Source: Leifsonia shinshuensis | GTDB taxonomy: Bacteria; Actinomycetota; Actinomycetes; Actinomycetales; Microbacteriaceae | Assembly (NCBI RefSeq): GCF_031456835.1 | Contig: NZ_JAVDVK010000001.1 | Coordinates: 2,356,001 to 2,420,000, forward strand | Direction: 5' to 3' | Length of the DNA: 64,000 nt | In this document: one piece after another, positions 619-27,026 of the stretch | Layout: the number at the start of each line of letters is the position of its first letter | Numbering within the stretch: position 1 is the stretch's first letter | The notes under the pieces: model-generated | Seen by the model: the letters and a program-made list of their open reading frames with translations, nothing else | Databases searched by the model: none | What the model was told of the DNA's origin: nothing | Position numbers and translations under genes: made by a program

Positions 619-1635
619 TCACTTCCGGTTGTCACCTGCCGCCGGGATCAGACCCTCCTCGATCAGCCGGCTCCACAGCGCGGTTGGGATCGGCTTCTCC
701 ATCAGCTGCGCGTTCGCCGATATCTGCGCGGCCGTGTCCGCTCCCGTCACGACGGTGGTGACCGCCGGGTGCCGAAGCGGGAATTGCAGGGCGAGCTGCG
801 GCACTGTCACCCCGTACTCGCCGGCGACGTCCGCTATGCGGTTCGTGCGTGCCACCAGTGACTGCGGCGGCTGGGCGTAATCGAAATGCGCTCCGGGGCG
901 CGGCCGGTCGGTGGCCAGCAGACCGGAGTTGAACACGGCGGCGACGACCACCTGAACCCCGCGCTCCTCCGCCGCCGGCAGCAGGTCGCGTGCGGCGGAG
1001 TCGTCGAGCAGGGTGTAGCGGCCGGCGCACATGACCACGTCGAGGTCCGTCTCGCGGACGAACCGGGCGAGCATGGCCGACTGGTTCATCCCGGCACCGT
1101 AGGCGCGGATGACGCCCTGCGACCGCAGCTCGTCGAGGGCCGGGAACGCCGTGTCGAGCGCCTCCCGCTCGTGGTCGTCCGGGTCGTGGGCGAAGAGCAC
1201 GTCGATGCGGTCCACGTCGAGCCGGATGAGCGACTCCTCGACCGAGCGGAGGATGCCGTCGCGGGAGTAGTCGACCCGGCGGCGCGAGGTGGCCGGGGTG
1301 TCGAACAGGTTCGGGAGGTCGGTGTCACCGGGCCGGTAGTCCGGGTTGGGCTCCAGGAGGCGCCCGACCTTGGTCGACAGGATGTACTGGTCGCGCGGCA
1401 GGCCGCGGAGCGACTCGCCGAGCCTCCGCTCCGAGAGTCCCAGTCCGTAGTGCGGCGCGGTGTCGAAGTACCGGACGCCGGCCTCCCACGCGGCGGGCAC
1501 GATGCCGGGCCAGACGTCGTCCGGCCGGGCACTGTAGAGGTTGCCCAGCGCGGCCGCGCCGTACCCGAGGGGGCCGAGCGGCAGGCGCGCGGGACGGTCG
1601 GGCTCAGCCCGCGAGACGGAGGAAGGCGTCGGCAT
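619..1635 (-). CDS. Aldo/keto reductase, probable L-fucose (D-threo-aldose) 1-dehydrogenase
   Basis: This 338-residue protein is a full-length AKR TIM barrel. The catalytic tetrad is visible as D58 and Y63 (RYFDTAPHYG), K89 (STKVG) and H150 (LFAHDPDDH). The GLSERRLGESLRG stretch and overall layout resemble D-threo-aldose 1-dehydrogenases, which oxidise L-fucose, L-galactose or D-arabinose to the lactone with NAD(P)+. It is the last gene of the leftward glycosidase operon, and its start overlaps the GH95 gene by 32 bases. A GAGGAGG ribosome site inside the GH95 coding sequence supports the 1635 start. In context it would catalyse the first oxidation of L-fucose released by the fucosidases. The exact sugar is inferred. 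Confidence 0.85.
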   Translation of the reverse strand: MPTPSSVSRAEPDRPARLPLGPLGYGAAALGNLYSARPDDVWPGIVPAAWEAGVRYFDTAPHYGLGLSERRLGESLRGLPRDQYILSTKVGRLLEPNPDYRPGDTDLPNLFDTPATSRRRVDYSRDGILRSVEESLIRLDVDRIDVLFAHDPDDHEREALDTAFPALDELRSQGVIRAYGAGMNQSAMLARFVRETDLDVVMCAGRYTLLDDSAARDLLPAAEERGVQVVVAAVFNSGLLATDRPRPGAHFDYAQPPQSLVARTNRIADVAGEYGVTVPQLALQFPLRHPAVTTVVTGADTAAQISANAQLMEKPIPTALWSRLIEEGLIPAAGDNRK

Positions 1636-4018
1636 CCAGCGTCACCTCCTCGCCGGCGTCGAGCGGGACGCGGATGCGGCCCTCGTCCAGGCGGACGACG
1701 ACGTCGCCGCTCCCCGCGGTGCGCGTCAGCGTCGCGCTCGTGAGCGCGCCGCCATCCCAGGTGAGGTCGACGGTGATCCCCCCGCGGGCTCGCAGGCCGC
1801 GGACGGAACCCGCCCCCCAGCTCGGCGGCAGCGCGGGCAGCAGGACGAGCTCGCCGGCGTGGCTCTGCAGGAGCAGCTCCGCCAGTGCGGCGGGGAGCCC
1901 GAGGCTCACATCCACCTGGAACGGCGGGTGAGCGCGCAGGAACGTGGGCACGAGTCCTCCCCACGCCCACCGCTCCGCTCCGCGGAGCTCGGGGTCGCCG
2001 TCCGGCGGGAGGAACGTGCTGCGGAGGATCGCCTCGGCGCCCGCGCCGTCGCGGAGGCGGGCTCGGAGGGCGATCGACCACGTCCAGGGCCAGCCCTCGG
2101 CGGGATGCGCACGTCCGGACGCGAAGGCGGCGGCGGCCGCCGCGAGCGCGGGGTCGCGGTCGGCGTCGATGCGGCCGAGCGGATACAGCCCGACCAGGGC
2201 GGAGAAGTGACCGTGGGCGGGGTTCGGGTCGTCGCGGTCGACGTGCCACTCGCGGATGCGGCCGTCCGCGCCGACGGCGTCCGGTTCGATGCGGGGAACG
2301 GCGCGCCGCGCTCGGTCGACGACGTCGTCCTCCTCGCGCCCGAGGACGGCAGCGGCCTCCACCAGGTCGTCGAGCACCTGCGCGATCAGCGCACGGTCGA
2401 TCGCGGTCGCCCGGTCGATCGCCGCGACGCCGTCGCCGTGGACGAAGTGGTTCTCCGGCGAGGTGGAGGGGTTGGTCACGAGCCACGGGCCGCCCTCGTC
2501 GAGCAGCCAGTCGAGAGCGAAGGCGGCCGCGCCGTGGAGGATCGGCCAGGCCCGGTCCCGCAGCCAGCTGGAGTCGAGGGTGAAGCGGTAATGCTCCATC
2601 AGGTGCGTGGTCAGCCAGGTGCCACCGGTCATCCAGACCGCCCAGGCGGGGTCGCCGTGACCGCGGCCGACGGGGAGCGGCCATCCCCAGAGGTCGGTGT
2701 TGTGGTGGCCGACCCAGCCTCTGGCGCCGTAGAGGGCTTCGGCGGCGATCGCGCCGGTCTCGGCCATGACCTCCACGAGGTGGACGAGCGGCTCGACCGT
2801 CTCCCCGAGTCCGGTCGTCTCGGCGGCCCAGTAGTGCATCGGCACGTTGATGTTGGTCGTGTAGTTCGACGACCAGGGCGGACGCAGGTCGTCGTTCCAC
2901 AGGCCCTGGAGGTTCACCGCGGGACCGCCCGGGCGCGAGGCGGAGACGAGCAGGTAGCGCCCGTACTGGAACAGCGCCGGAGCGATGGCCGCCTGGTCGT
3001 CGTCGGCTGTCAGCCGGTCGACGACCACGACCTCGGGCGTCCCCGCGAGACGCAGGGACGCTGCCGTGAGGAGCGGCCGCACGTCCGCGACGTGCCGGGC
3101 CAGCGCGTCCTCCGCTCCGCGGGCGACGGCGACCCGGGCGCGCGCCGTCGCCCGGTCGAGGTGCCGGTCGAGGCCGGGGACCGACGAGCGGTCGCGGAAC
3201 CAGTCCTCCGCCGCCGTCGAGGAGGCGAGCGCGAGTCGCACCGTGGTCGCACCCGTGATCTCCAGCCGGTCGCCGACGACGGTCTGCTGCCCGTCCGTCG
3301 TCACCGCCGTCACGGCCGCGGCGACGTTCTCCCAGCCGTCGACGACGCCGTCGGCGGGGTGTCCCGGGCGCGCCGGGTCGCCCGCCCAGCGGAACGGCGC
3401 CACATCCGTCTCGTGGAGCGGTGCGCCGTCCAGGGGCAGCTCGACGCCGAGTTCCAGGACGCCCGGCTCCACCCGCAGCGACCGCCGCCGCAGCCGGGTG
3501 GTCAGTTCGAGGGAGACGTCGAAGCGTCCTCCGTCGGCCGCCAGTTCGACCTGCAGCGCGTCGTCCGGGCGGCTCGCCCACACGCGGCGCGTGACCGAGA
3601 CGAGGTCGTTGGCGATGCGGTCCGTGTAGACGGCGTCCTCCAGGTCGAGTGTCCTCCCCTCGAAGGCGAGAGCGGCGCCGGCCGCAGAGAACCGCGCCCG
3701 CAGGTCGACATAGGGAAGGAACTCCTGGCTGTACGTCCCCTCGAACGCCCTGAGCATCCGATCGGCGTCGGCGAGGCGGTCCTCGCGCACCGCCCTCCGC
3801 ACCTCCTCCAGCGCCGCGGGGTCCGCGCCGGCGCGGACGAGGGCGTCGAGCTCGGCGCGCCAGGCGTCCGGGGCGCCGGACCAGACGGTTCCGTCGTTGA
3901 CCTGGAGATGGAGGCCGTCGGTGCCGGCGAGGATCATCGCGCCCAGCCGGCCGTTGCCGATCGGGGTGCCCTCGATCCATCGGGCGGGCGGCCCCTCCCA
4001 GCGCAACCGCCGGGTCAT
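1604..4018 (-). CDS. GH95 alpha-L-fucosidase (first copy)
   Basis: This 804-residue protein matches the full length of glycoside hydrolase family 95 (inverting alpha-1,2-L-fucosidases, some acting on alpha-L-galactosides). The N-terminal domain begins with the family signature around IGNGRLGAMI and VNDGTVWSG. The (alpha/alpha)6 barrel shows NYTTNIN (Asn ~389 and ~391), HHNTDLWGW and NPSTSPEN (catalytic Glu ~522). The usual FQIDGNxG motif with the second acidic residue reads FQVDVSLG (Asp ~702), so the Asp is kept but its neighbours differ from the second copy at 11028. No signal peptide is seen, so it probably cleaves imported oligosaccharides in the cytoplasm. ATGA overlap with the upstream CE7 gene implies translational coupling. 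Confidence 0.92.
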   Translation of the reverse strand: MTRRLRWEGPPARWIEGTPIGNGRLGAMILAGTDGLHLQVNDGTVWSGAPDAWRAELDALVRAGADPAALEEVRRAVREDRLADADRMLRAFEGTYSQEFLPYVDLRARFSAAGAALAFEGRTLDLEDAVYTDRIANDLVSVTRRVWASRPDDALQVELAADGGRFDVSLELTTRLRRRSLRVEPGVLELGVELPLDGAPLHETDVAPFRWAGDPARPGHPADGVVDGWENVAAAVTAVTTDGQQTVVGDRLEITGATTVRLALASSTAAEDWFRDRSSVPGLDRHLDRATARARVAVARGAEDALARHVADVRPLLTAASLRLAGTPEVVVVDRLTADDDQAAIAPALFQYGRYLLVSASRPGGPAVNLQGLWNDDLRPPWSSNYTTNINVPMHYWAAETTGLGETVEPLVHLVEVMAETGAIAAEALYGARGWVGHHNTDLWGWPLPVGRGHGDPAWAVWMTGGTWLTTHLMEHYRFTLDSSWLRDRAWPILHGAAAFALDWLLDEGGPWLVTNPSTSPENHFVHGDGVAAIDRATAIDRALIAQVLDDLVEAAAVLGREEDDVVDRARRAVPRIEPDAVGADGRIREWHVDRDDPNPAHGHFSALVGLYPLGRIDADRDPALAAAAAAFASGRAHPAEGWPWTWSIALRARLRDGAGAEAILRSTFLPPDGDPELRGAERWAWGGLVPTFLRAHPPFQVDVSLGLPAALAELLLQSHAGELVLLPALPPSWGAGSVRGLRARGGITVDLTWDGGALTSATLTRTAGSGDVVVRLDEGRIRVPLDAGEEVTLDADAFLRLAG

Positions 4019-4944
4019 GCGGCGCTCCCCGTCGAACCGAAGCGCTCACGCAGCACCGCGAGCGCACCCTGCCGGTCGTGCGTCCCGCCGGCTTCATGCC
4101 CGGCGGCGGGCCATTCCCGGAACACGACCGGTGCCGCGTAGGCCTCGGCGGCGGCGCGCGCGGTCTCGGGCGGGCAGATGTCGTCGGCGAGACCGTCGGT
4201 GATCCAGCCCGGCGCGGTGGCGTGGCGGGCGGACGTGACGCCGTCCACATACGCGAGGGTGCGCGCGACGGCGTCGGCGCGGTCGGGATGCTCGATGAGG
4301 TACTCGCGCAGCTCCAGCCAGGGACCCTGCGCTGCGAGCCGGACGCCGTCCGGCGCGTCGGTCAGGAACGGCGCCTGCGCGAGCACCGCGACGAGATCCG
4401 GGACCAGCGCGCCGACGCCCAGGGCGATCCCGCCACCCTGGCTGTTGCCGATCGCGGCGATGCGCGTGGCATCCACCTCGTCGAGCGCGCGGAGCGCGTC
4501 GACCGCGCGGGCCGCGTCCACGAAGACGCCCCGGTAATAAGAGGTGCGCGGGTCGAGGATCCCCTCCAGCAGGTGGCCGGTGCTGCCGCCGCCCTGCCCG
4601 TGGGTGTCGACGATCAGCTGGGCGAATCCGGCCGCCGGCCACGTGAGGTCGTCGATCGGCGACAGCCGGCCGGCGCCGTAGCCGTTCGCGTGCACGATGC
4701 CCGGCAGGGGCTCCGTGCGGTGATGCGGGAGCCGTAGCCAGCCGCGGACGCGACGGCCGTCGTACCCGCAGAAGGAAATGTCGAAGACGTCGACGGCGGT
4801 GAGGCCGGTGTCGACGGGTGCCAGGCGCAGGTCGAGCGGATGGCGGCGGGCGCCGGCGAGCGCCTCGTCCCAGAACTCCCTGTAGTCGTCGGGGGTCGGC
4901 AGCGGCTTGTGGCCGAGCACGGACGGGTGGGCGGGACGGCTCAT
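4015..4944 (-). CDS. CE7-type acetyl (xylan) esterase
   Basis: This 309-residue alpha/beta hydrolase fits carbohydrate esterase family 7 (acetyl xylan esterase / cephalosporin C deacetylase) in length and motifs. The nucleophile is S168 in AIGNSQGGG, the acid D255 in GLADDICPPE and the base H283 in AAGHEAGG. An oxyanion-region signature (NGYGAG, ~88) and HGQGGG (~115) are also present. There is no signal peptide, consistent with intracellular deacetylation of imported oligosaccharides. The stop overlaps the GH95 start, and its own start overlaps the enolase-superfamily stop, so it sits in the middle of a tightly coupled operon. The acetylated substrate in this locus is not shown by the sequence. 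Confidence 0.9.
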   Translation of the reverse strand: MSRPAHPSVLGHKPLPTPDDYREFWDEALAGARRHPLDLRLAPVDTGLTAVDVFDISFCGYDGRRVRGWLRLPHHRTEPLPGIVHANGYGAGRLSPIDDLTWPAAGFAQLIVDTHGQGGGSTGHLLEGILDPRTSYYRGVFVDAARAVDALRALDEVDATRIAAIGNSQGGGIALGVGALVPDLVAVLAQAPFLTDAPDGVRLAAQGPWLELREYLIEHPDRADAVARTLAYVDGVTSARHATAPGWITDGLADDICPPETARAAAEAYAAPVVFREWPAAGHEAGGTHDRQGALAVLRERFGSTGSAA

Positions 4945-6029
4945 GCGGCGAACCTCTCGAGGTCGGCCGGGTACTCGAGCCCGGCGGGAAGGGCGATGCC
5001 CGGTGTTGTCGGTGCGTGCAGCATCCCGTCGGCGTCCACGGCGGGCTCACGGCGGACCGGGTGCGATGTGACGAGCGACTCGTAATAGGTCGTGTTGGAG
5101 ATCGCCATGCACAGATGATGGGTCGGGATGTCCGAGCCGTGCACCTCGGCGCGCAGGAGGAACGAGTCGGCGAGGTGTGCGGTGCGCATGGCGCCGGTGA
5201 TGCCGCCACGCAGGTTCGTGCTCGTGCGGACGCCGAAGGTGGCGGCGCCGGCACGGATGAAGTCGGCGGAGTCGAAGTGCGCGCCGTCCGAGGTCTCCCC
5301 GACGAGCAGCGAGATCCGGACGGAGCGGGCCAGTGCCGCGTAGGCGCCCACGCTGAACTCGCGCATCGGCTCCTCGTACCAGAGGTATCCGGCGTCGGCG
5401 AGCGCGTCGCCGAGACGGATCGCGTCGGGCAGGTCGAAGCCCGCGGAGCCGTCGTACATCAGGGGGACCGCGTCGCCGACGTGCTCCCGCAGCGCGAGCG
5501 CGAGCTCCGCATCCCGGCGGGCGTCGCCCCACGCGTGCAGCTTGACGCCGCGATACCCGAGCGCGAGGGCCTGGTCGGCGACGTCGAGGAACTCGGGGAT
5601 GTCGGCGAACGTGCTCGTGGAGGCGTAGGCCGGGATCTCGGTGCGGAAGCCGCCGAGCAGGCGCCAGACCGGCTCGCCCTGCACACGGCCCGCCAGATCC
5701 CAGAGCGCCGTGTCCACCAGCCCGAGCACGTAGAGCGGGAGCTCGTGGATGCGGTCGAGCTCCCACACGCGGTGCCACAGCCACTCGCGCTGCAGCGGGT
5801 CCGCTCCGAGCAGCTCGGGGCGGAAGACGTTCTCCGCCAGGTACGAGAGCACTGCCCACGCCCCCGGCCGGGAGAGGAAGGCGACCCCCTCCGCACCCGC
5901 GTCGGTGCCGATCCTGAGGACCGCGCCGTCACCGGTCGCCGGGCTGCCGCTGAGGCCGTCCCGCCACCGGAACGGCGGGTCGGCGGGAGGCACGGCGACG
6001 CGGAACGCCTCCACGTGGGTGATCTTCAT
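4941..6029 (-). CDS. Enolase-superfamily (mandelate racemase/MLE) sugar-acid enzyme
   Basis: This protein of 362 residues has both the capping domain and the TIM barrel of the mandelate racemase/muconate lactonising group. Metal ligands are visible as D193 (LMYDGSAG), E219 or E220 (YEEP) and E245 (VGETSDG). The second-strand motif is K163-L-H165 rather than the common KxK, and the late barrel shows EVHGSD (H297). It probably dehydrates or epimerises a sugar acid, but the specificity cannot be read. The ATG at 6029 is preferred because GGAG lies 8 bases upstream. It is coupled (ATGA) to the CE7 gene. It differs clearly from the fucD-like enzyme at 19052 and may serve a second acid such as galactonate, or an L-galactose derivative. 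Confidence 0.85.
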   Translation of the reverse strand: MKITHVEAFRVAVPPADPPFRWRDGLSGSPATGDGAVLRIGTDAGAEGVAFLSRPGAWAVLSYLAENVFRPELLGADPLQREWLWHRVWELDRIHELPLYVLGLVDTALWDLAGRVQGEPVWRLLGGFRTEIPAYASTSTFADIPEFLDVADQALALGYRGVKLHAWGDARRDAELALALREHVGDAVPLMYDGSAGFDLPDAIRLGDALADAGYLWYEEPMREFSVGAYAALARSVRISLLVGETSDGAHFDSADFIRAGAATFGVRTSTNLRGGITGAMRTAHLADSFLLRAEVHGSDIPTHHLCMAISNTTYYESLVTSHPVRREPAVDADGMLHAPTTPGIALPAGLEYPADLERFAA

Positions 6030-6085: not shown

Positions 6086-8653
6086 TCAGCGGACGGAGTA
6101 GCGGACGGCGTCGGTGCGCATCACGTCACCCGACTCCTTGACCGCCATGAAGGTGTGCGGCCCGGCGCGGAGCCCGGTCGCACTGAACAGCGTCTGCTGG
6201 GTGCGGCGGGTGTCGCTGTGAGTGTCGACGCGCTTGACGAGCTTGCCGTCGATGTACACGTCCACGACGCCCTGGTCGGGAGCGGTCGCGCCGATCCAGT
6301 CGACACCTGTCCCGGTGAAGACGTAGGACACCGAGGCGCCCGCGGTCTTCGTCGAGTGGACGTCGTCCAGGTAGTCGCCGCGGAACCCGACGTTCAGCGT
6401 GGTCGCTCCGACGGGCAGCGTCGCCAGGTACGTCGTGCTCAGCGTGACCGTCGACCCGGACACCGTGTAGTCGGTGCCCTTCGTGAGCGCCTTGCCGTTC
6501 GCCGTGATGCCGGTGAACTCGTCCGGGTCGCGGAGGACACCGAAGCTGGCCGCGGCCGGCGCCTTGGTGTCGAACGACACGGAGGACGGGTCGATCAGGT
6601 TCGGCTGGATCACGTCGAGCCGGTCGATCAGCATGAACTGCCCGGACTTCATGACCACGCGCAGCGTGTGCTGCCCGTTGGTCAGGTCGTTCGTCGTGAA
6701 CACGACCTGCTGCGCGGTGTGCGAAGCGGTCGGGATGTTGGCGCTGACCGTCTTCACCAGCTGCCCGTCGATGTACACGTCCGCGTCGCCCTCGGACGAG
6801 TCGAGCTCGGTGTAGTACGAGATGCCGGTCCCGGTGAAGGTGTACGAGAACGAGTCGCTGCCCGGGTGCTCGGCGTAGTGGACATCGTCCTGGTAGTCGC
6901 CGAAGTTGCGCCCGTTGCTGTACCCCCACTGCCCGGAGTACGTGATCCCGGGGTCGGTGTCGTTGACGGTCGTGGTGCGGGTCGGGCCGGTGGGCGTGGA
7001 GGGCGCGGGCGAGCCCGTGTCCGTCACGTTCACGGTCAGCGGCTGGGAGGTCGAGGCGACCTCGGCCCCGCCGTTGCGGGTCCAGTCGCCGCCGTACTTC
7101 ATGCCGAGCGCGTCGTCGTTGACCGTGACGGTGGCTCCCTTGTCGGGCGTCACCTTCAGCAGCCGGACGCCGTGGATCGGCACGTCGGAGGCGGTGAAGC
7201 CGGTGGCGGCCTTGCCGAGGTTCTTGCGCGCCCACAGGTCACGGACCGTCGCCGACCCCTTCAGCCCGATGTCGGACCACTTCGCGCTCACGTCCGACTC
7301 CGATCGCCCGAGGTTGAACAGGGCGACGGTGTAGCTGCCGTCCGCGTTGAGGGCGTACCAGACCTGCTGCTTGGAGGTGGTGGAGACGGGACGCGCGGGC
7401 ACACCGGCCTGGTCCACGGCCACCACTTCGGGGTTGGTCAGCAGGTCGATCCCGAACTGGTCGAGGTTCGTCAGATCGTTGCCGGTGTACATCGGCGCCG
7501 CAGAGATCGCCCACAGCGTGGTGGCCGTCCGCCGCTCGTCCGGGGTCAGGCCGTCCATCTTGCCGTTGCCGACGTCGAGCGAGTCGAAGTCGTTCCACCC
7601 GCCGGGTCCGGCGTGACGCCACCAGTCGGCCGCGCGCGGGAACAGACGGTTGATGTTGTCCCACTGGGTGAGCGCCTCTCCGCCGCAGTAGCACTCGACG
7701 TCCCACTCCACGCGCCAGCCGTTGGCGTACTGCTTCCAGTAGTCGGCGTAGTTGATGTCGAGCGCCCACGAGATCTCGAACCAGATCTTGTGCGCCTTCA
7801 GCGCTTTCGACCACGCGGCGACGTCGTCGCGTGCGTCCACCGATCCGTCGCTGATGCCCGAACCGGGGGTGACGCTGTCGAACTTGACGAAGTTCACGCC
7901 CCAGGAGGCGAGCTGGTCGACGATGGAGTCGACGTACTTCTGGGAGCACGGGTTCGTGAAGTCGATGCGGTAGCCGATCTTCCAGTAGTCGGCCTGCTGC
8001 AGCGGCTGCTTCACGATGTCGTGGGTCGTGCAGCCCGGGGCGTTCGCGATGGGGTACGCCTTCTCGTACACGGCCGGGGAGATGCCCGGGATCAGGTACA
8101 CGCCGAACTTCTGGCCGTTCGCGTGGACGTGGTCGATCACCTTCTGCAGGCCCTGCGGGTAGAGCTTGGCGCTCGGGGTGGGGCGGCCGTTCCCGTCGAC
8201 CCCGTCGCTCCAGCCGGCGTCGACGTTGATGTGGTCGTAGCCGGCCTTCTGCAGCTTCGCGTGCATGGCGTCGGACTGGGCGATGAGCTGGTCGCCGGTG
8301 ATCCACTGCCCGTTCGTGTAGACCTGCATGCTGTAGCTGCTCCAGCCCATGTAGGGCTTCTGCGCCCAGGGGTCGCCGGTCGTGGCAGGAGGCTGGATGG
8401 GGGTGGGGACGTCGGCGGACTTGGCGGACGCCTTGGTGGACGCCTTCGCGGTCGGTGATGCGGTGGGCGACGGGGTTCCGGTCGGCGACGGCGTCGCCGT
8501 CGGCGACTCGGTCGGCGTCGGTGTCGCGGTCGTCGTGGGCGGCGGCGTCGGCGACGCGGTGGCGGGCAGCGCGGCGGCCGCCACCAGTCCCAGCGCCGCG
8601 ACCGTCACGGCCGCAGCCTGCAGGCCGCGACGCGCACGTGTCATGCGGGTCAT
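6086..8653 (-). CDS. Secreted GH27 alpha-galactosidase with C-terminal modules
   Basis: This 855-residue protein starts with a Sec signal peptide (MTRMTRARRGLQAAAVTVAA, cleavage near ATA|SP), then an unusually long Thr/Pro/Ser/Lys linker to about residue 90. The GH27 (melibiase) domain follows: MGWSSYS, nucleophile D259 in FVKFDS and probable acid/base D318 in RVEWD. A beta domain, a carbohydrate-binding-like module (~560-685), an X2-type Ig-like domain (~690-755, with TDYTVSG and ATLPVG) and a second binding-like module to the C-terminus complete it. It should release terminal alpha-galactose outside the cell. ATG at 8653 has AGGAAG upstream. It is the only clearly exported glycosidase in the locus, and no cell-wall anchor is present. 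Confidence 0.93.
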   Translation of the reverse strand: MTRMTRARRGLQAAAVTVAALGLVAAAALPATASPTPPPTTTATPTPTESPTATPSPTGTPSPTASPTAKASTKASAKSADVPTPIQPPATTGDPWAQKPYMGWSSYSMQVYTNGQWITGDQLIAQSDAMHAKLQKAGYDHINVDAGWSDGVDGNGRPTPSAKLYPQGLQKVIDHVHANGQKFGVYLIPGISPAVYEKAYPIANAPGCTTHDIVKQPLQQADYWKIGYRIDFTNPCSQKYVDSIVDQLASWGVNFVKFDSVTPGSGISDGSVDARDDVAAWSKALKAHKIWFEISWALDINYADYWKQYANGWRVEWDVECYCGGEALTQWDNINRLFPRAADWWRHAGPGGWNDFDSLDVGNGKMDGLTPDERRTATTLWAISAAPMYTGNDLTNLDQFGIDLLTNPEVVAVDQAGVPARPVSTTSKQQVWYALNADGSYTVALFNLGRSESDVSAKWSDIGLKGSATVRDLWARKNLGKAATGFTASDVPIHGVRLLKVTPDKGATVTVNDDALGMKYGGDWTRNGGAEVASTSQPLTVNVTDTGSPAPSTPTGPTRTTTVNDTDPGITYSGQWGYSNGRNFGDYQDDVHYAEHPGSDSFSYTFTGTGISYYTELDSSEGDADVYIDGQLVKTVSANIPTASHTAQQVVFTTNDLTNGQHTLRVVMKSGQFMLIDRLDVIQPNLIDPSSVSFDTKAPAAASFGVLRDPDEFTGITANGKALTKGTDYTVSGSTVTLSTTYLATLPVGATTLNVGFRGDYLDDVHSTKTAGASVSYVFTGTGVDWIGATAPDQGVVDVYIDGKLVKRVDTHSDTRRTQQTLFSATGLRAGPHTFMAVKESGDVMRTDAVRYSVR

Positions 8654-17088: not shown

Positions 17089-17116
17089 GCATTCCGCCCG
17101 GCTGATCGGAGAACCG

Positions 17117-18235: not shown

Positions 18236-18264
18236 GCGCCCGGAGGCCGACCTAGGATGTGCGC

Positions 18265-19009: not shown

Positions 19010-19021
19010 ATCCTATAGGAT
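19010..19021. promoter_or_regulatory. Putative GntR operator, site 2, in the fucD promoter
   Basis: ATCCTATAGGAT is a perfect 12-base palindrome 30 bases before the fucD start. TAGGAT (19016-19021) within it resembles a -10 hexamer, so a bound repressor would cover the promoter. It shares a ten-base core with the site at 17073-17088. Confidence 0.65.
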
Positions 19022-19051
19022 ATAGCCGACACGAGCCGAGGAAGGCCTCCG

Positions 19052-20335
19052 ATGAGCACCGTTACCGCATTCGACACCGTCGACGTCCGCTTCGAGACAT
19101 CCGCCCTGCTGGACGGGTCCGACGCCATGAATCCCGACCCCGACTACTCCGCCGCCTACCTCCGGCTGAGCACGGACGCCGCCGATGGGCACGAGGGCCA
19201 TGCATTCGTCTTCACGATCGGCCGCGGCAACGACGTCCAGGTGGCGGCGATCGAGGCGGTCGCCGAGCGCGTCGTCGGGCGCGACCTGGAGGCGGACCTC
19301 GCCGACCTGGGAGGCTTCTGGCGAGAGCTCGTCCACGACTCGCAGCTGCGCTGGCTCGGCCCGGAGAAGGGCGTCATGCACATGGCGATCGGCGCGGTGG
19401 TCAACGCGTACTGGGACCTCAAGGCCAAGCGCGCCGGTCTGCCGCTCTGGCAGCTCCTCGGGCGGATGACGCCGGAGGAGCTGGTCGCGCTCGTCGACTT
19501 CCGCTATCTCACCGACGCCCTCACCCCGGAGGAGGCGCTCGACATCCTCCGCGCCGCCGAGCCCGGGCGCGCCGCTCGCGAGGCGGAACTGCTCGCCTCC
19601 GGCTACCCCGGTTACACGACCACGCCCGGCTGGCTGGGGTACTCGGACGACAAGCTGCGCCGGCTCGCGCGGGAGGCGGTGGACGACGGCTTCGCCCAGA
19701 TCAAGCTGAAGGTCGGCGACCGGCTGGAAGACGACCTCCGCCGCCTGGCCATCGCCCGCGACGAGGTCGGCCCCGGCATCCGGATCGCCGTCGACGCGAA
19801 CCAGCGCTGGGATCGCGACCAGGCGGTGGAGTGGATCCGCGCGCTCGAGCCGTTCGACCTCGCCTGGGTGGAGGAGCCGACCAGCCCGGACGACATCCTG
19901 GCGCACGCGGCCATCGCCGACGCGGTCGCTCCGGTGCCGATCGCGACCGGGGAGCACGGGATGAACCGCGTGCTGTTCAAACAGCTGCTGCAGGCGCGCG
20001 CCGCCTCCATCGTCCAGATCGACGCAACGCGGGTCGCCGGGGTGAACGAGAACGTCGCCATCCTGCTCCTCGCCGCCAAGTTCGGCGTCCGGGTCTGCCC
20101 GCACGCCGGCGGGGTGGGCCTGTGCGAGGCTGTGCAGCACTTCTCGATGTTCGACTTCGTGGCCGTCTCCGGCTCGATGGAAGGCCGCATGATCGAGTAC
20201 ACGACGCATCTGCACGAGCACATGGTCGCGCCGGCCGTGGTCGAGGGCGGACGCTACCGGGCGCCGCTCTCACCCGGCAACGGCATGGAGATGCGGGCCG
20301 AGTCGCTGCGGGACCACCGGGTGACCTCGTGGTGA
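19052..20335 (+). CDS. fucD: L-fuconate dehydratase
   Basis: The 427-residue protein matches L-fuconate dehydratases over its full length, with the typical N-terminus [26 protein letters not shown] and [15 protein letters not shown]. Active-site residues are K218/K220 (IKLKVG), metal ligands D248, E274 and E301, D324 in QIDATR and H351 in CPHAGG. K220 and H351 coincide with the known catalytic pair of the Xanthomonas enzyme (recalled numbering). It removes water from L-fuconate to give 2-keto-3-deoxy-L-fuconate. The start has AGGAAGG upstream and a GntR-type palindrome in its promoter. Its stop overlaps the lldD GTG. L-galactonate is a known alternative substrate of this family. Confidence 0.95.
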
Positions 20336-21597
20336 CCCGGCAGGCGCCGCGTCCGGCCGAGCTGCTGGAGTTGATGCAGTTCAAGAAGCCGGAGCTGAAC
20401 CTGAAGAAGCGGCGGCTGGAGTCGGCGCTGACGATCGAGGACCTGGCGCGGATCGCCCGCCGGCGCACACCTCGTGCGGCGTTCGACTACACCGAGGGTG
20501 CCGCCGAGGGGGAGCTGTCGTTGGCGCGGGCGCGGCAGGCGTTCCAGGATGTGGAGTTCCACCCCTCGATCCTGCGGGACGTGTCCACTGTCGACACGTC
20601 CTGCGAGATCTGGGGTGGTCCCTCGGCGTTGCCGTTCGGGATCGCCCCGACCGGGTTCACGAGGCTGATGCAGACCGAGGGGGAGACCGCCGGAGCCGGC
20701 GCTGCCGGTGCGGCGGGCATCCCGTTCACCCTCTCCACGCTCGGGACGACGTCGATCGAGGGGGTGAAGGCGGCGAACCCGAACGGGCGCAACTGGTTCC
20801 AGCTGTATGTGATGCGGCAACGCGAAATCAGCTACGGGCTGGTGGAGCGGGCGGCGCAGGCGGGGTTCGACACGCTGTTCTTCACGGTCGATACGCCGAT
20901 CGCGGGGGCGAGGTTGCGGGATAAGCGCAACGGGTTCTCCATCCCACCCCAGCTCACCCTCGGCACCATTCTGAACGCGATCCCCAGGCCGTGGTGGTGG
21001 TACGACTTCCTGACCACTCCGAAACTCGAGTTCGCGTCCCTGTCCTCCACCGGAGGGACGGTGGGCGACCTGCTGAACGCGGCGATGGATCCGTCGATCA
21101 ATTACGATGATTTGGCGATCATCCGGGAGATGTGGCCGGGGAAGCTCGTCATCAAGGGCGTGCAGAACGTCGAAGACGCCCGCACCCTGGTGGATCACGG
21201 GGTGGACGGGATCGTTCTCTCCAACCACGGCGGACGGCAGCTGGACCGTGCCCCCATCCCCTTCCATCTCCTCCCCTCGGTGGTGCGTGAGGTGGGGCAT
21301 CACACCGAGGTCGCGATCGACACCGGCATCATGAACGGCGCCGACATCATCGCCGCCTACGCGTTGGGCGCCAAGTTCACCCTGATCGGCCGCGCCTACC
21401 TCTACGGCCTGATGGCCGGCGGCCGCGCGGGCGTCGACCGCACCATCCAGATCCTCACCGACCAGCTCATCCGCACCATGAAACTCCTCCAGGTCACCTC
21501 GCTCGCCGAACTCGGCCCGCACCACGTCACGCAACTCACCCGGCTGCAGCCCCTCCGCCGCGACCCCGAGCCCGTCCGGCAGGACACCGACGCCTGA
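20332..21597 (+). CDS. lldD: FMN-dependent L-lactate dehydrogenase
   Basis: This 421-residue protein is an FMN-dependent alpha-hydroxy-acid dehydrogenase. It has the N-terminal FDYTEGAAE region, FMN contacts around APTGF and [22 protein letters not shown] and the catalytic His299 in [10 protein letters not shown], followed by [19 protein letters not shown] hydrophobic WWWYDFL insert in the middle (~residue 222) is the membrane-associating loop expected for the respiratory LldD type. It starts at GTG 20332, overlapping the fucD stop (GTGA), so the two are translationally coupled. In this locus it oxidises the L-lactate formed by the FAH-family step to pyruvate, feeding electrons to quinone. 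Codon use becomes slightly less GC-biased in its middle, without obvious sign of recent transfer. Confidence 0.93.
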
Positions 21598-21599
21598 TC

Positions 21600-21859: not shown

Positions 21860-23542
21860 TCAGTTCTTCGACTTGTCGTACGCCGTCTGGAGCGTGCTCA
21901 GGTAGTCCTTGAGGCCGAGGCCGTCGAAGCCCTTCACGTACGCGTCCCAATCGGTGTCGAGGTTCTTCGACCCGGTGATGAAGGCCAGGGCGTTCTGGGT
22001 CACGTAGTTGTCGATGTTCGTCTGCTCCGTGGCGACCTGGGTGGCCTTGGACGGGTCCGGCCACACCCGCCATGACGGGTACACCTGGTCCTTCGGCTCG
22101 TGCCCCTTGTACAGCAGGGTCGCGTCGAACAGCCGTCGCTCGTAGCCCGAGGGGTCGTAGAGGTCGGTCGGCACCGCCTGCGACCCGCGGAACGCCTCGT
22201 TCTGGTTGTAGGTCGACAGCGCGCCCCACTGCACGGCGTTGGCCGCATCCTGGTCGAGCTGCAGGTTGACGAACGCCGCCTTCTCGTTCGGGTCGAGGGC
22301 CTTGTCGTCGGCGCCGGCCTTGGCCCAGCCCTTGCCCTCCGGACCAAAGTTGCCGTCGAGCTGGCCCTTCTCCGTGAAGAGGTAGTTCACCATCTTGATC
22401 GCGGCGACCTGGTCGTTCTTGGAGGCCTTGTTCGTCAGCAGGAAGGTGGCGCCGGGGGTGCTTCCGAAGGCGTACGTCGCGTAGTCCGCGCCGTCCGGGC
22501 CGGTCAGCGGCGGCACCGCGTCGTACTGCTTGTCACGGCCGTCCTTGGCGCCCGGGCTGACGAAGATGTACGGGTGCAGCGAGCTGGCGCTTCCCAGCAG
22601 CACGGGACCTTCGTTGTTGCCCTCCTGGGCGAGCGCCGCGGGGTTCTGCGTGAAGGCGCCCTTGTCGATGAGGCCCGCGTCCCACAGCGACTTGATGTAC
22701 TTCAGTCCCTCGCGCCAGCCGTCCTTGTTCGCCTGGATGTCGACCTTGCCCTTGTTGAGGACCGTCGTCGACTGGATGCCCTTGTCGGGGTTCTGCGGGT
22801 CGTAGATGAAGGCGTTCATGAAGTACGGGATCAGCGTGTCGTGCGAGTCGCCGCTCAGCGGGATCTCGTCCTTCTTGCCGTTGCCGTTCGGGTCGCCGTT
22901 CTTGAAGGCCTCGAGGACCTTCGTCATGTCGTCCGTCGTCTTCGGCATCTGCAGGCCCAGCTTCTTCAGCCAGTCGGTGTTGATCCAGAGCTTCGACGGG
23001 TACTGGATGTGCAGCGTCTCGGCGAGCTGCGGCAGCCCGTAGATCTTGCCGTCCGGCGAGGTCGCCATCGCCTTGTAGTCCGGGTTGCTGTCGAGCACCT
23101 TCTGGATGTCCGGCGCATACTGCTTGATGAGGTCGTTCAGTGGAACGGCGACGCCCTGCTTCGCGAGCTTCTCGACATCCACCTGGTTGAACTGGTCCAC
23201 CCACGGGATGAGCAGGAACGCGTCCGGGTAGTCGCCGCTCGCCATGAGGATCTGGCGCTTCTCCGGCGCCACCGACGAGTCCTGCGTGGTGGTCTGCCAG
23301 TTGAACTTGATGTTGAACTTCTTGGCCACCTCCTTGGTGAAGGCGTTGGTGGCGAGGTCCTGCCCGGTCCCCTGCTGCGCGAAGACGCTGAGGTTCGCGG
23401 TGCCGCCGATCTTGTCGTCCGCGCCGTTGCCCTGCGAGGGCGTGCAGGCCGAGAGCGCGAGCAGCGCCGCACCGCTCACCGCGACGGCGAGCGTCGCCGA
23501 GCGCCGGCGCCGGCGGGCGCGGCTGTCCGTGATGGAAAACAT
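21860..23542 (-). CDS. ABC importer extracellular solute-binding lipoprotein (LplA-like)
   Basis: The 560-residue protein begins with an Arg-rich signal peptide and a lipobox LSAC (Cys33), so it is a lipoprotein on the outer face of the membrane. The mature part has the two-lobed oligosaccharide-binding fold of the large LplA/YtcQ-type binding proteins, with a ligand-type EF-like loop GDPNGNGKKDEIP (~215) often seen as a calcium site in this group. A perfect AAAGGAGG ribosome site lies 8 bases before ATG, stronger than any other in the operon, as expected for a protein needed in excess over the permeases. It is the last gene of the importer operon. The ligand is probably an oligosaccharide from the glycosidase island. 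Confidence 0.93.
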   Translation of the reverse strand: MFSITDSRARRRRRSATLAVAVSGAALLALSACTPSQGNGADDKIGGTANLSVFAQQGTGQDLATNAFTKEVAKKFNIKFNWQTTTQDSSVAPEKRQILMASGDYPDAFLLIPWVDQFNQVDVEKLAKQGVAVPLNDLIKQYAPDIQKVLDSNPDYKAMATSPDGKIYGLPQLAETLHIQYPSKLWINTDWLKKLGLQMPKTTDDMTKVLEAFKNGDPNGNGKKDEIPLSGDSHDTLIPYFMNAFIYDPQNPDKGIQSTTVLNKGKVDIQANKDGWREGLKYIKSLWDAGLIDKGAFTQNPAALAQEGNNEGPVLLGSASSLHPYIFVSPGAKDGRDKQYDAVPPLTGPDGADYATYAFGSTPGATFLLTNKASKNDQVAAIKMVNYLFTEKGQLDGNFGPEGKGWAKAGADDKALDPNEKAAFVNLQLDQDAANAVQWGALSTYNQNEAFRGSQAVPTDLYDPSGYERRLFDATLLYKGHEPKDQVYPSWRVWPDPSKATQVATEQTNIDNYVTQNALAFITGSKNLDTDWDAYVKGFDGLGLKDYLSTLQTAYDKSKN

Positions 23543-23626: not shown

Positions 23627-24589
23627 TCAGCCCTTGACCGATCCGATGAGCACCCCTTTGCTGAAGTACCGGGCGACGAAGGGGTAGATGATGAGCACCG
23701 GCACGCTCGTGATGACGATGAGCGAGTACTTGAGCAGGTTGACGAGTTCCTGGTTCTGAGCCTGAGCCGCCAGGTCGTTGGTGCCGCCGTTCGTCGCGTT
23801 GAGCACGAGGATGTTGCGCAGCACCAGCTGGAGTGGGAACAGGTCGGAGCTCTTCAGGTAGAGGAGGGCGTCGAAGTAGCCGTTCCATTGACCGATCGCG
23901 TACATCAGCGCGATCACGGCGATGAGCGGCTTGGACAGCGGGAGCACCATCGTCCAGAGGAAGCGCCAGTCGCTCGCGCCGTCGAGCTCCGCCGCTTCGA
24001 CCAGCTCGTCCGGGATCGCGGAGCGGAAGAAGGTCCGCGCGATGATCACCTGCCAGACGGCGACGGCCTGCGGGAGCAGCAGCGCCCAGCGGGTGTCGAG
24101 CATCCCCAGGTTCTGCACGACCATGTAGGTCGGGATGAGGCCGCCGCTGAACAGCATCGTGAACAGCAGGAGCGACATGATCACGTTGCGTCCCATGAAG
24201 GTCCGCCGGGACAGCGGCCAGGCGATGCACACGGTCAGCGTCGTGCTGATCAGCGTCCCCGCGACCATGTAGAAGAGGGAGTTCGCATACCCCAAAAGCA
24301 CCTGCGGGTCGGAGAGGACCGTCTGGTAGCCCTTCAGCGTGAAGTCGACCGGCCAGAGGAACACCTCCCCCGCCGTGACGGCGTGCGGGGACGAGAACGA
24401 ACTCGCGAGGATGTAGAGGAGCGGCAGGATGACGAACAGCGCTCCGAGCGTCAGCCCGAGGTAGATCAGGACGAGCAGGGCGCGGTCCGCGGGCGACTCG
24501 CGGATGCGGCGCGGCTTCTTCGTGCGCGGCTTCCAGTTCGCGTTCGCGCGCGTCGTCCTGCTGTCGGCCAGGCGGTCGAGGGTCACCAC
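23627..24589 (-). CDS. ABC sugar importer permease (LplC/YtcP-like)
   Basis: The 320-residue inner-membrane protein has six predicted membrane segments after a ~35-residue basic cytoplasmic tail. The cytoplasmic EAA loop for ATPase docking reads EAAELDGASDWRFLWTMVLP (~residue 200). The C-terminus ARYFSKGVLIGSVKG is the hallmark of the LplC/MalG-like carbohydrate permeases. It overlaps the upstream permease gene by seven bases and is followed by the binding-protein gene after 84 bases. No ATP-binding subunit gene is present, so it probably uses a shared MsiK-type ATPase encoded elsewhere. Confidence 0.93.
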   Translation of the reverse strand: MVTLDRLADSRTTRANANWKPRTKKPRRIRESPADRALLVLIYLGLTLGALFVILPLLYILASSFSSPHAVTAGEVFLWPVDFTLKGYQTVLSDPQVLLGYANSLFYMVAGTLISTTLTVCIAWPLSRRTFMGRNVIMSLLLFTMLFSGGLIPTYMVVQNLGMLDTRWALLLPQAVAVWQVIIARTFFRSAIPDELVEAAELDGASDWRFLWTMVLPLSKPLIAVIALMYAIGQWNGYFDALLYLKSSDLFPLQLVLRNILVLNATNGGTNDLAAQAQNQELVNLLKYSLIVITSVPVLIIYPFVARYFSKGVLIGSVKG

Positions 24590-25602
24590 AGTCCGCTCCC
24601 ACTCACTCGGCGTGCGACCCAGTTGACGACGAGGAGCAGCACGAGGTTGATCACGGAGTTGAAGAGGCCGACGGCGGTCGCCGTCCCGAAGTCGGCGTTG
24701 AGGATGCCCAGCTTGTAGACGTAGGTCGCGATGATCTCGGACTGGCCGAGGTTCAGCGGGTTCTGCAGGAGGAACGCCTTCTCGAACCCGATCGCCATGA
24801 TGTTGCCGACGCTCAGGATCAGCACGATCATCGCCGTGGGCATGATGCCGGGGATGTCGACGTGCCAGATCTTGCGGAGCCGGGAGGCGCCATCCACCCT
24901 CGCCGCCTCATAGAGCGACGGGTCGATGCCGGAGAGCGCCGCCATGTAGATGACCGCGGAGTAGCCGGCCGTCTGCCAGACGTCGGACCACACGTACACG
25001 TGCCGGAAGTAGTCGGGGTCGCCGAGGAAGTCGGGCGACGGGACGCCGAAGAAGCCGAACACCTCGCTGAGGATGCCGAGCCGCGGAGCCATGATGAGGA
25101 TCAGCATCGACACCACGACGACTGTCGAGATGAAGTACGGAGCGTACGTGATCATCTGCACGGTCTTCTGGAACCAGCGGTGGCGCACCTCGTTGAGCGC
25201 CAGTGCCAGGATGAGCGGGATGGGGAAGCTCGCCAGCACCGCGTAGCCGGACAGGATGAGCGTGTTCGAGAGAAGCGTCGGGAACTGCGGGTTCTGCAGG
25301 AAGAGTTCGAAGTTGGTCCAGCCGGTCCACGGGCTGCCCCACACCCCGAGGACGGGGCTGTAGTCCTTGAAGGCGATGATCGCGTTCGAGATCGGGACGT
25401 ACTTGAAGATCACGAAGTACGCGAGCGGGAGGATGGTCAGCAGGTAGAGCTGCCAGTGCCGCCGCAGCGCGATCTTCCAGCGCTGGCCGAGGCTCCTCTT
25501 GCGTCTCGTTGTGGTCGTCGCACCTCGCGTGACGGTCGACCGGGGCTGTCCCGCCGGTGCGGCCACGGGGGGTGCGCTGGATACGGGCGGTGCGCTCGTC
25601 AC
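24583..25602 (-). CDS. ABC sugar importer permease (LplB-like)
   Basis: This 339-residue membrane protein starts at a GTG with AGAGG upstream. A cytoplasmic N-terminal extension rich in Ala, Pro and Arg (~1-45) precedes six predicted membrane segments. The EAA loop reads YEAARVDGASRLRKIWHVDI (~residue 232). It is the partner of the downstream permease in an LplABC-type importer. It is the first gene of the operon and lies 99 bases downstream of a TTGACA-containing operator-like site. The N-terminal extension is low-complexity and its role is unknown. Confidence 0.93.
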   Translation of the reverse strand: MTSAPPVSSAPPVAAPAGQPRSTVTRGATTTTRRKRSLGQRWKIALRRHWQLYLLTILPLAYFVIFKYVPISNAIIAFKDYSPVLGVWGSPWTGWTNFELFLQNPQFPTLLSNTLILSGYAVLASFPIPLILALALNEVRHRWFQKTVQMITYAPYFISTVVVVSMLILIMAPRLGILSEVFGFFGVPSPDFLGDPDYFRHVYVWSDVWQTAGYSAVIYMAALSGIDPSLYEAARVDGASRLRKIWHVDIPGIMPTAMIVLILSVGNIMAIGFEKAFLLQNPLNLGQSEIIATYVYKLGILNADFGTATAVGLFNSVINLVLLLVVNWVARRVSGSGLW

Positions 25603-25808: not shown

Positions 25809-27026
25809 GTGCGAGACGACAGCGTCCGGGCCGGGCGGAGTGCCATCACGGCGCGCCGGCCTGCGCTCGGCACGGCGAAGTCCGCAGAGATCTTCACCCG
25901 CATCATCACCCACGGCCCCGTCAGCAGACTGGACATCGGGCGCATGACAGGGCTGTCGCAGGCGAAGGTCACGAAGACGGTCAGCCCGCTCATCGAGAGC
26001 GGGTACGTCCAGGTGGGCGAGCATGCCGAGCACTCGGTCCCCGGTCGGCCGGTGCGGCCGCTCAGTGCGGTGCCGAGCTCGATGATCGCCATCGGGGTCA
26101 AGGTCAATGAGGGCGAGCTTTTCGCCGTCTCCGTCGATCTCCGCAATGACGTGCTGGGCTCGACGCACCGCGTACTGGCAAGCCACGACCCCGAGTCGGT
26201 GACGGACGCGATCGTCGCTTCGGTCGACGCGCTGATCGCACAGCTCGGCGCCGACGCAGCGAATCTCGTCGGCGTCGGAGTCTCCGTGTCCGGCGACATC
26301 GACACGAGCACGGGAACCGTCCGCCATTCGCCCTTGCTCGACTGGTCCCAGGTGCCGCTGGGAGACCGGCTCGAGTCGCTGCTCGGCCTCCCGGTCACCG
26401 TGGAGAACGACGTCCGCGCGCTGGCCAAGGCGGAGCACTGGTTCGGGGTGGGCAGAGACGCGACCTCGTTCGCGATCGTCACTATCGGCGCGGGCATCGG
26501 CTGCGGCATCTACGTCAACGGCGACGTCGTGACCGGGTCCCACGGTGTGGCCGGCGAGATCGGGCACCTTCCCCTCGCGTCCTCGGACGCGATCTGCGTG
26601 TGCGGCAGACGGGGATGCGTCGAGGCCGTGGCCTCCTCGCATGCCATCCTCGAGGCGGTCCGGCGCGGGCATGGTGACTCCGGCCTCGAAATGACGGACG
26701 CGATCCGGCTCGCCCATGAGGGCGACCCGAGCGCCGTGGAGGCGTTCGAGCGTGCGGGGACGGCGGTCGGCGACGCACTGGCTGCCACGGTGAACCTGTT
26801 CGGGCCGGAAGTCGTTCTCATCGCCGGCGAGGGCGTCATGGATTACGACCTGTACGAGCGCCGGTTCCGCGAGGAGTTCCAAGCGCACGCGTTCGGCGCA
26901 GCCGCGAACTGCCGTCTCGTCGTCCGCCGCCACACCTTCTACGACTGGGCTCGCGGCGCCGCCGTCGCCATGCTTCGCGAAGCCATAGCGAACTCGCCTC
27001 TCGACCGAGCAGACGTGGACACCTAG
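25809..27026 (+). CDS. ROK-family transcriptional repressor (second copy)
   Basis: The 405-residue protein has an N-terminal winged helix (~25-90, SRLDIGRMTGLSQAKVTKTV) and a ROK domain with the intact zinc/sugar motif GHLPLASSDAICVCGRRGC (~255-275), ENDVRALAKAEHWFGVG and TIGAGIGCG. It closely parallels the first ROK protein at 13430. It starts at a GTG with no clear ribosome site, so it may be translated from a leaderless or near-leaderless message. It is divergent from the ABC importer operon and probably controls it through the TTGACA-type site at 25701-25713. Its stop codon shares the four-base CTAG with that of the convergent esterase gene. Confidence 0.92.
   Translation: MRDDSVRAGRSAITARRPALGTAKSAEIFTRIITHGPVSRLDIGRMTGLSQAKVTKTVSPLIESGYVQVGEHAEHSVPGRPVRPLSAVPSSMIAIGVKVNEGELFAVSVDLRNDVLGSTHRVLASHDPESVTDAIVASVDALIAQLGADAANLVGVGVSVSGDIDTSTGTVRHSPLLDWSQVPLGDRLESLLGLPVTVENDVRALAKAEHWFGVGRDATSFAIVTIGAGIGCGIYVNGDVVTGSHGVAGEIGHLPLASSDAICVCGRRGCVEAVASSHAILEAVRRGHGDSGLEMTDAIRLAHEGDPSAVEAFERAGTAVGDALAATVNLFGPEVVLIAGEGVMDYDLYERRFREEFQAHAFGAAANCRLVVRRHTFYDWARGAAVAMLREAIANSPLDRADVDT

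Follow-up and report, generated by a model that had tools for sequence, protein, structure and literature searches.

The stretch of DNA analysed here, referred to as the window, comprises 64,000 nucleotides (positions 2,356,001-2,420,000) of the genome of Leifsonia shinshuensis, a single contig of 3,788,128 bases, and carries an island of glycoside hydrolase, transport, sugar-acid and regulatory genes (Table 1), predicted to convert L-fucose to pyruvate and L-lactate without phosphorylation. Domain searches bore out the gene list of a first-pass annotation made from the letters alone (two GH95 enzymes, two alpha-galactosidases, an esterase, an L-fuconate dehydratase, AKR, an importer and three regulators among others), and all of the genes that it named sit at positions 619-27026; it overlooked two further enolase-superfamily enzymes, which we call ENO_b and ENO_c. 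Because the window is rich in G+C (65-75% in 2-kb steps) and its antisense open reading frames (ORFs) are long, gene calls were settled by domain matches; two plus-strand ORFs (6044-8458 and 8715-10985) were rejected as antisense and domain-free, and a minus-strand ORF (20254-21645) as the antisense of lldD. The genus comparison covers 28 Leifsonia genomes, namely the window genome (G000) and 27 relatives, with presence set at E <= 1e-3 for GH95, E <= 1e-80 for FucD and E <= 1e-60 for ENO_c; locus labels in the relatives come from a crude ORF caller and tblastn, and some genes there stay unlabelled.

Table 1. Features of the island and its left neighbour, in window coordinates. Signal peptides, lipobox and cell location were judged by eye.
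Feature	Position	Strand	Basis or remark
tRNA-Gly (CCC)	541..614	+	ARAGORN; left neighbour of the island, beside the AKR end
AKR, predicted L-fucose (L-galactose-type) 1-dehydrogenase	619..1635	-	PF00248; PDB L-galactose dehydrogenases
GH95b, divergent-clade GH95	1604..4018	-	catalytic residues kept, surrounding residues altered
AXE1-family acetyl esterase	4015..4944	-	PF05448, E 1.5e-65; no signal peptide
ENO_c, enolase superfamily, predicted alternative 6-deoxyhexonate (L-fuconate) dehydratase	4941..6029	-	
GH27	6086..8653	-	PF16499, PF17801, PF03442, PF17996; CBM_X2/CE2_N-type domains; signal peptide
GH36 alpha-galactosidase family	8742..10940	-	PF02065, E 8e-115; no signal peptide
GGTTATTTGACAGTGTCAATTAACC, 25-bp palindrome, predicted ROK1 operator	10963..10987	.	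GH36/GH95a divergent promoter
GH95a, canonical GH95 (alpha-L-fucosidase/L-galactosidase family)	11028..13433	+	no signal peptide
ROK1, ROK-family regulator	13430..14596	+	PF00480
FAH-family hydrolase, predicted 2,4-diketo-3-deoxy-L-fuconate hydrolase (FucG type)	14607..15458	+	PF01557; PDB 8GSR
SDR, predicted 2-keto-3-deoxy-L-fuconate 4-dehydrogenase (FucF type)	15476..16222	+	PDB 4DQX
Predicted L-fucono-1,5-lactonase, Amidohydro_2, FucB type	16225..17073	-	NCBIfam; PDB 4DLF
ATCCTATAGGCAATAG, predicted GntR operator	17074..17089	.	between lactonase and ENO_b
ENO_b, enolase superfamily (L-talarate/galactarate dehydratase-like)	17117..18235	+	in relatives' FucD clusters
GntR-FCD regulator of the predicted FucD regulon	18259..18966	+	PF07729 and PF00392
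ATCCTATAGGATATAG, predicted GntR operator before FucD	19010..19025	.	
FucD, L-fuconate dehydratase	19052..20335	+	PDB match over residues 1-421
LldD-type FMN-dependent dehydrogenase, predicted L-lactate dehydrogenase	20332..21597	+	PF01070 (FMN_dh), E 1.5e-123
Lipoprotein solute-binding protein (SBP)	21860..23542	-	lipobox; homologue names
ABC permease PermB	23627..24589	-	PF00528
ABC permease PermA	24583..25602	-	PF00528
ROK2, ROK-family regulator	25809..27026	+	52% identical to ROK1; divergent from the importer

Results

FucD matches the PDB entries 2HNE, 2HXT and 1YEY ('L-fuconate dehydratase') at E about 6e-180. The best NCBIfam model for the lactonase is L-fucono-1,5-lactonase, at 172 bits against a cut-off of 400, and its best PDB match (E 8e-29) is 4DLF, which we take to be a fuconolactonase. 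The nearest PDB entry to the FAH-family protein, 8GSR, is an L-2,4-diketo-3-deoxyrhamnonate hydrolase (NCBIfam, 255 of 500 bits), and the diketo intermediate of that hydrolase is common to the fucose and rhamnose routes (PMC11199699). The SDR, a member of a broad family, best matches 4DQX, an enzyme placed beside type-2 2-keto-3-deoxyfuconate dehydrogenase (L-KDFDH) in PMC11199699, and also matches the L-KDFDH entries 8XWK, 8Y4J and 8Y11. For AKR the best PDB matches are L-galactose dehydrogenases, and counterparts 68-77% identical to it occur in 14 fetched FucD clusters (L126-L129, L131-L138, L142, L150), typically between GntR and ENO_b. The LldD-type gene lies directly behind FucD and scores 249 bits with the NCBIfam LldD model. 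No isomerase, kinase or aldolase domain of the phosphorylating fucose pathway was found among the island genes scanned. That the island encodes the non-phosphorylating L-fucose route known as route 3, ending in pyruvate and L-lactate, together with lactate oxidation, is thus a well-supported prediction, and the original proposal of such a route, tied to fucoside cleavage and import, is supported by homology and context.

The distribution of these genes in the genus points the same way. GH95 and FucD are present in the same 21 of the 28 genomes and both absent from the other seven, a pattern whose hypergeometric figure of 8.4e-7 ignores kinship (FucD in G006 is in two pieces in different frames). 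Counterparts of GH95a (72-80% identical) were found in 17 of the 27 relatives, and GH36, GH95a and ROK1 are grouped in 17/17 of these loci; around GH95a, GH27 was detected in 16 of the 17 and AXE1 in 13, the remaining four stretches ending inside GH27. The constant grouping and the joint presence pattern argue that the island is more than chance. The island unites two loci that are separate in 12 of the 17 relatives examined and adjacent in the other five. The distance between FucD and GH95a is 19-27 kb in G001, G013, G014, G019 and G025 and at least 147 kb in eight genomes; in four the two genes are on different contigs.

Among the genomes with neighbouring loci, the FucD side was fetched in G001, G014 and G019; there a cluster of FucD, GntR, AKR, importer, lactonase and FAH adjoins the AXE1-GH27-GH36/GH95a-ROK1 locus, and the cluster contains a pair of GH29 genes and, beside FAH, a 110-aa ORF whose counterpart in L128 (G008) is rhaM by Pfam. 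FucD, the GH29 pair, lactonase and GntR sites are similarly spaced in G013 and G025. Of the 20 FucD-positive genomes other than that of the window, 15 have such a GH29 pair with their FucD cluster (Pfam was run on two of these clusters). The window has its pathway genes between ROK1 and the importer, with AKR at the far left, and lacks the GH29 pair, second importer and rhaM of relatives' FucD clusters. Because G004 (L060, reversed) shows the order AXE1-GH27-GH36/GH95a-ROK1-SBP-PermB-PermA-ROK2 with no pathway genes, its FucD being 631 kb off, the window looks as though a compact FucD cassette had been inserted into this GH95a/GH36 locus. Two features considered as unique to the window were rejected as such: the importer orientation, opposite to that in L054-L058, is the same in L060, and a compact FucD cluster without GH29 occurs also in L133 (G026) and L134 (G006), while the spacing in G010 implies another one there. 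The compact lactonase-site-ENO_b layout is likewise present in L133 and L134 and implied in G010.

A GntR-FCD protein accompanied by a palindromic site before its genes, the combination expected of an FCD-type GntR regulon, was found in the FucD cluster. The pattern CCTATAGGNNATAG has 34 sites in the 28 genomes, as compared to 0 for the reversed pattern, and 34/34 share a contig with FucD, at most 18,008 bases from it. It occurs in 19 genomes, in 19/19 of which GntR lies in the FucD cluster (75-81% identical in the 18 others); the FucD-positive genomes G003 and G015 have neither CCTATAGGNNATAG nor a GntR match above about 25% near FucD. The window genome has exactly two sites, both in the window, one before FucD and one between lactonase and ENO_b (17074..17089), which abuts the lactonase start codon; the 20-mer at the latter is identical in eight fetched loci, seven of which have the GH29 pair, with the site between both GH29 genes. 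Across 38 fetched loci (755 kb), which were chosen around these genes and partly overlap, the form CCTATAGG was counted 31 times, versus 5.7 times expected at a fixed 70% G+C. We predict that CCTATAGGNNATAG is the operator to which GntR would bind. The FAH gene begins 10 bases behind ROK1 and lacks a GntR site. The CCTATAGGAAATAG form, found in 14 of the 28 genomes, by contrast adjoins FAH in each of the 9 scanned loci where it is present, so that in the window the last two pathway steps (FAH and SDR) have probably moved under the ROK1-controlled promoter.

ROK1 itself aligns with Mlc/NagC models beginning at model residue 14-18, at scores below cut-off. A 19-mer search for its candidate site, the 25-bp palindrome, in which 2 mismatches at most were allowed, placed it in the GH36 divergent promoter of 18/18 GH95a genomes (in G027, a single strand matched). 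GH36 and GH95a flank it directly in 12 of them, whereas in the other six (G003, G006, G011, G012, G016 and G026) its neighbours are GH36 and an importer gene preceding GH95a; one further copy lies elsewhere in G006. Since the palindrome is wider than TTGACA, which may partly be a -35 box, we predict that it is the ROK1 operator. No operator was found for ROK2: a block around ATTATTGACAACG is kept in seven sequences, with no clear shared palindrome and no genome-wide search made. Of the twin ROK and GntR control first proposed, the ROK1 and GntR arms have therefore acquired predicted sites and the ROK2 arm has not.

The L-fuconate dehydratase of the first-pass annotation stands as FucD, but there are three enolase-superfamily enzymes rather than one, mutually 23-31% identical. 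In NCBIfam, ENO_c scores best with the L-talarate/galactarate dehydratase model (108 of 500 bits; ENO_b, 291 of 500), and the PDB entries closest to it (4MMW, 1RVK, 4HCD) form an 'isomerase/lactonizing enzyme' group; its ORF extends to 6077, and the 362-aa database copy begins at 6029. ENO_c was found in 6 of the 27 relatives. In G022, G007, G026 and G010 it stands with permease, SDR, AKR and AXE1-like genes, and in all of these except G026 also with FAH and lactonase; a GH141_M match beside it is above cut-off in G022 and G007 and reaches 26.6 of 27 bits in G026, and none was found in the two ORFs of G010 that were scanned. The searches made of G022 found no FucD, GH95 or GH29.

A wider set, the best 80 of 253 GTDB r220 stretches encoding some relative (66-78% identity; some share one genome, and three are from Leifsonia genomes already counted), places ENO_c with permease in 69 loci, SBP in 67 and GH141-like genes in 59. 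At least one of AKR, SDR, FAH and lactonase is present in 54, at least two in 27 and all four in 12; at the search sensitivity and flank used, 26 have none. Among the 53 full-length loci the counts are GH141-like 42, AKR 34, SDR 22, lactonase 16 and FAH 10. FucD was found in 0 of the 80 (best identity to the FucD probe, 30%), and the GH78 probe in one, its own source genome. LutB or LldD is present in eight, a minority, which leans toward lactate and thus toward a 6-deoxyhexose. The name GH141 is based on weak but above-cut-off GH141_M matches in four of the proteins scanned (L146, L147, L195 and, in the window genome itself, L140) and a strong one in L144, a second GH141-like subgroup (mostly 35-39%) lying outside the GH141_M scan; because GH141 spans fucosidase-type and xylanase activity (PMC10154630), these neighbours do not fix the sugar. 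A general link between AXE1 and ENO_c was considered and rejected, as it holds in 7/7 genus genomes (the window, G003, G015 and four others) but in only 7 of the 80 wider loci. ENO_b adjoins ENO_c in 4 of the 80 and yet occurs with FucD in the genus, and so looks like an accessory rather than a substitute dehydratase. For the ENO_c family, actinobacterial and uncharacterised, we predict the role of a second 6-deoxyhexonate dehydratase. Separately, an altronate/galactarate-dehydratase-family protein in G007 (L143:7587-9140) stands with FAH, SDR, lactonase, permease, GH36 and GH95-like genes and is possibly a third kind of dehydratase for the fucose route.

Both GH95 proteins keep the family domains and the catalytic Asn pair, Glu and Asp, and the counterparts of GH95a keep the family residues in 17/17. 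GH95b has a counterpart in one of the 27 relatives (G003, 78%), and one scan of genome contigs with it found no relative. When its clade (the window protein and seven homologues at 64-78%, a 99% copy being left out) was compared with the 112 others among 120 homologues listed of 4445, five positions near-invariant in the latter were altered: N to H, K to S/A, G to V/I and N to S, each in 8/8, and R to G in 7/8, as against N in 111, K in 111, G in 110, N in 111 and R in 112 of the others. The catalytic Asn pair, Glu and Asp are retained in 8/8. By motif alignment the altered R is R612 of FucOB, which touches glycerol in the pocket (PMC10063614). The specificity of this clade may thus have changed.

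Of the remaining genes, SBP has no Pfam match at E <= 0.001, and its named homologues are extracellular solute-binding or 'putative aldouronate transport' proteins. GH27 reads VDAGW where two aligned solved alpha-galactosidases read IDDCW, at what is presumably a sugar-contact position, and may not be an alpha-galactosidase. Three related inverted repeats, GACATTCGTGCCGAATGTC once and CGATTTGTGCCAAATCG twice, are present at 21605-21717, where lldD and SBP converge. Outside the island, a left-flank LuxR gene (24-491 of the window; full gene in L145) and a right-flank methyltransferase gene (27887-28690) have matches at E <= 1e-60 in one and two of the 27 relatives, respectively, a rarity that suggests a largely genome-specific neighbourhood. 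Of the marks of a tRNA-borne genomic island (an integrase and direct repeats with a tRNA end), tRNA-Gly is present beside AKR, and no integrase was found among the few flank genes scanned. A sulfatase gene adjoins one for a sulfatase-modifying (FGE) protein (L145:6097-9409) near the GH95b end of the island, ~1.6-4.9 kb to the left of where the window begins.

Discussion

We consider it probable that the window holds, as a whole, a Leifsonia glycan-to-pyruvate locus under GntR and ROK1 control. Read from the homology identities, synteny, co-occurrence and site specificity observed, the activities, cell locations, regulator binding and glycan would combine as follows. The secreted GH27 would act outside the cell and the ATP-binding cassette (ABC) importer would take up oligosaccharides, from which GH36, AXE1 and the two GH95 enzymes, presumably cytosolic as no signal peptide was seen in any of them, would strip alpha-galactosyl, acetyl and alpha-L-fucosyl (or L-galactosyl) groups. 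L-fucose would then be oxidised by AKR, the lactone hydrolysed by the lactonase and the acid dehydrated by FucD, with ENO_c as a putative second dehydratase; oxidation by SDR and cleavage by FAH would yield pyruvate and L-lactate, the latter to be oxidised by LldD. GntR-FCD would control the lactonase and the ENO_b-GntR-FucD-LldD unit through the CCTATAGG palindromes, and ROK1 the divergent GH36 and GH95a units through the 25-bp palindrome. This gene set fits a glycan or oligosaccharide that is acetylated and carries alpha-galactosyl and alpha-L-fucosyl (or L-galactosyl) groups at its ends.

Several observations weigh against such a reading. The NCBIfam scores of lactonase, FAH and LldD (the last with a 550-bit cut-off) are all under the curated cut-offs. 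No L-fucose mutarotase was found in the island, the sole rhaM-family match of the genome being at 3.24 Mb; PMC11199699 describes FucM as a step of the pathway and does not state it as a requirement for the cluster. A second FucD-like gene (59%) and two GH29 genes lie elsewhere in the genome, and the island may thus not be its only fucose system. Linkage between GH95a and the pathway is not general, since in 12 of the 18 GH95a genomes FucD is >100 kb off or on another contig, and because the genus genomes are kin, the 21/7 pattern of GH95 and FucD does not amount to 28 independent observations. In G022 (L152:6865-10323) the palindrome stands between GH36 (80%) and ROK1 (76%) with no GH95 found, possibly a simpler unit. 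Finally, GH95 enzymes can release L-galactose besides L-fucose (PMC4491172). As to the rest of the genome, its second fucose-type region (G000:C1:3240000-3281999; L140, L141) contains the two GH29 genes, the 59% FucD-like gene, a lactonase (38%), rhaM, and GH141-like, GH42, GH2, GH39 and AKR genes.

The glycan and the integrity of the locus admit other explanations. The first-pass annotation had named xyloglucan or a pectin side chain, whose fucosylation, galactosylation and acetylation match the island in outline, and GH95 of Xanthomonas does act on fucosylated xyloglucan; the Xanthomonas xyloglucan locus, however, comprises GH74, GH31, GH35 and GH95 (PMC8245568), and Pfam scans of the island genes found none of the first three, nor a xylosidase, xyloglucanase or beta-galactosidase domain, the galactosidases being of alpha-type families. 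The few unlabelled ORFs scanned from 3 of the 17 GH95a-locus genomes (G003, G001, G004) likewise contained no GH74, GH31 or GH35. Xyloglucan is thus not supported, and the original proposal as a whole, fucosylated xyloglucan or a pectin side chain, we regard as very unlikely. One could also envision L-galactose as the key sugar, for example from maize-type glucuronoarabinoxylan or rhamnogalacturonan II, with GH95 as an alpha-L-galactosidase and pyruvate and L-glycerate as products. This would agree with the L-galactose dehydrogenases among the best matches of AKR and with the Thr that both window GH95s have at the position of AfcA His419, like the L-galactosidase BACOVA_03438 (PMC4491172); the Thr/His polymorphism was rejected as evidence of L-galactose preference, since according to PMC8245568 and PMC10063614 it was later shown not to decide specificity. 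In addition, relatives combine the FucD cluster with GH29, and the LldD-type gene sits in the FucD unit. L-lactate derives from 6-deoxyhexoses, not from L-galactose, and a pathway built on the latter seems improbable to us. A chance rearrangement that set the FucD cassette beside a GH36/GH27/GH95a locus serving an alpha-galactoside would account for the GH36, ROK1 and palindrome that stand together in G022 without GH95 or FucD, and for the separation of the two loci in 12 of 17 relatives. Against it speak the 21 genomes that hold both GH95 and FucD, the position of FAH-SDR directly behind ROK1 and the 19-27 kb spacing in five further genomes, and we think it unlikely that the adjacency is accidental.

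The role of ENO_c is less settled. We propose, tentatively and at somewhat less than even chance, that it is a widespread Actinomycetes dehydratase that replaces FucD in a GH141-linked pathway for L-fucose or another 6-deoxyhexose, and that the window joins it to the FucD regulon, beside a remodelled GH95 clade that would supply its substrate. It is nearly an even bet that ENO_c is no fuconate dehydratase and takes a different sugar acid, be it L-rhamnonate, D-arabinonate or, like some enolase relatives, an aldarate: its nearest relatives in PDB and NCBIfam are the lactonizing-enzyme group and the L-talarate/galactarate dehydratase model, and steps like those of FAH and SDR also exist in the routes for L-rhamnose and pentoses (PMC11199699; PMC6336799). 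The frequency of GH141-like genes at ENO_c loci (59/80) as compared to the GH78 probe (1/80) argues against such a substrate, and the lactate-oxidation genes (8/80), though in a minority of loci, lean toward a 6-deoxyhexose.

The fucose pathway and the enzyme families are already known, and the searches made, which cover open-licence papers, showed no mention of the joined layout, the two site families, or the ENO_c and GH95b predictions. What the window offers is a fucose locus of a Gram-positive bacterium whose steps of release, uptake and oxidation are readable together with their control, with two predicted operators specific enough for direct testing; the large unnamed ENO_c family gains a concrete substrate prediction, and the small GH95b clade is one whose specificity is not readable from known GH95 members.

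As compared to known systems, the island resembles route 3 as described for Xanthomonas campestris, Herbaspirillum huttiense and other organisms in PMC11199699, in which a dehydrogenase, a lactonase, a FucD-type dehydratase, an SDR and an FAH-family enzyme lead to pyruvate and L-lactate; it differs from the route described there in using an AKR as the predicted L-fucose dehydrogenase, in having LldD in the operon and no mutarotase at the locus, and in adding GH95, GH36, GH27, AXE1, an importer and the extra enolases ENO_b and ENO_c. Within Leifsonia, the FucD clusters with a GH29 pair (L126-L129, L131, L132, L135-L138, L142, L150) share with it FucD, lactonase, FAH/SDR, AKR, ENO_b, GntR and CCTATAGG, as labelled per locus, whereas in the window AKR is in the GH95b unit, FAH-SDR is behind ROK1, and there is no GH29 pair, second importer or rhaM. 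The galactarate/talarate dehydratase-type enolases (1RVK/4MMW; 2PP0) are superfamily relatives of ENO_c and ENO_b, both of which fall under the NCBIfam cut-offs and have the gene context of a fucose-type pathway. Like AfcA (2EAB), BACOVA_03438 (4UFC), XacAfc95 (7KMQ), FucOB (7ZNZ) and BH0842 (2RDY), both window GH95s keep the family domains and catalytic residues, but the GH95b clade is altered at the five positions that are near-invariant in the 112 other homologues.

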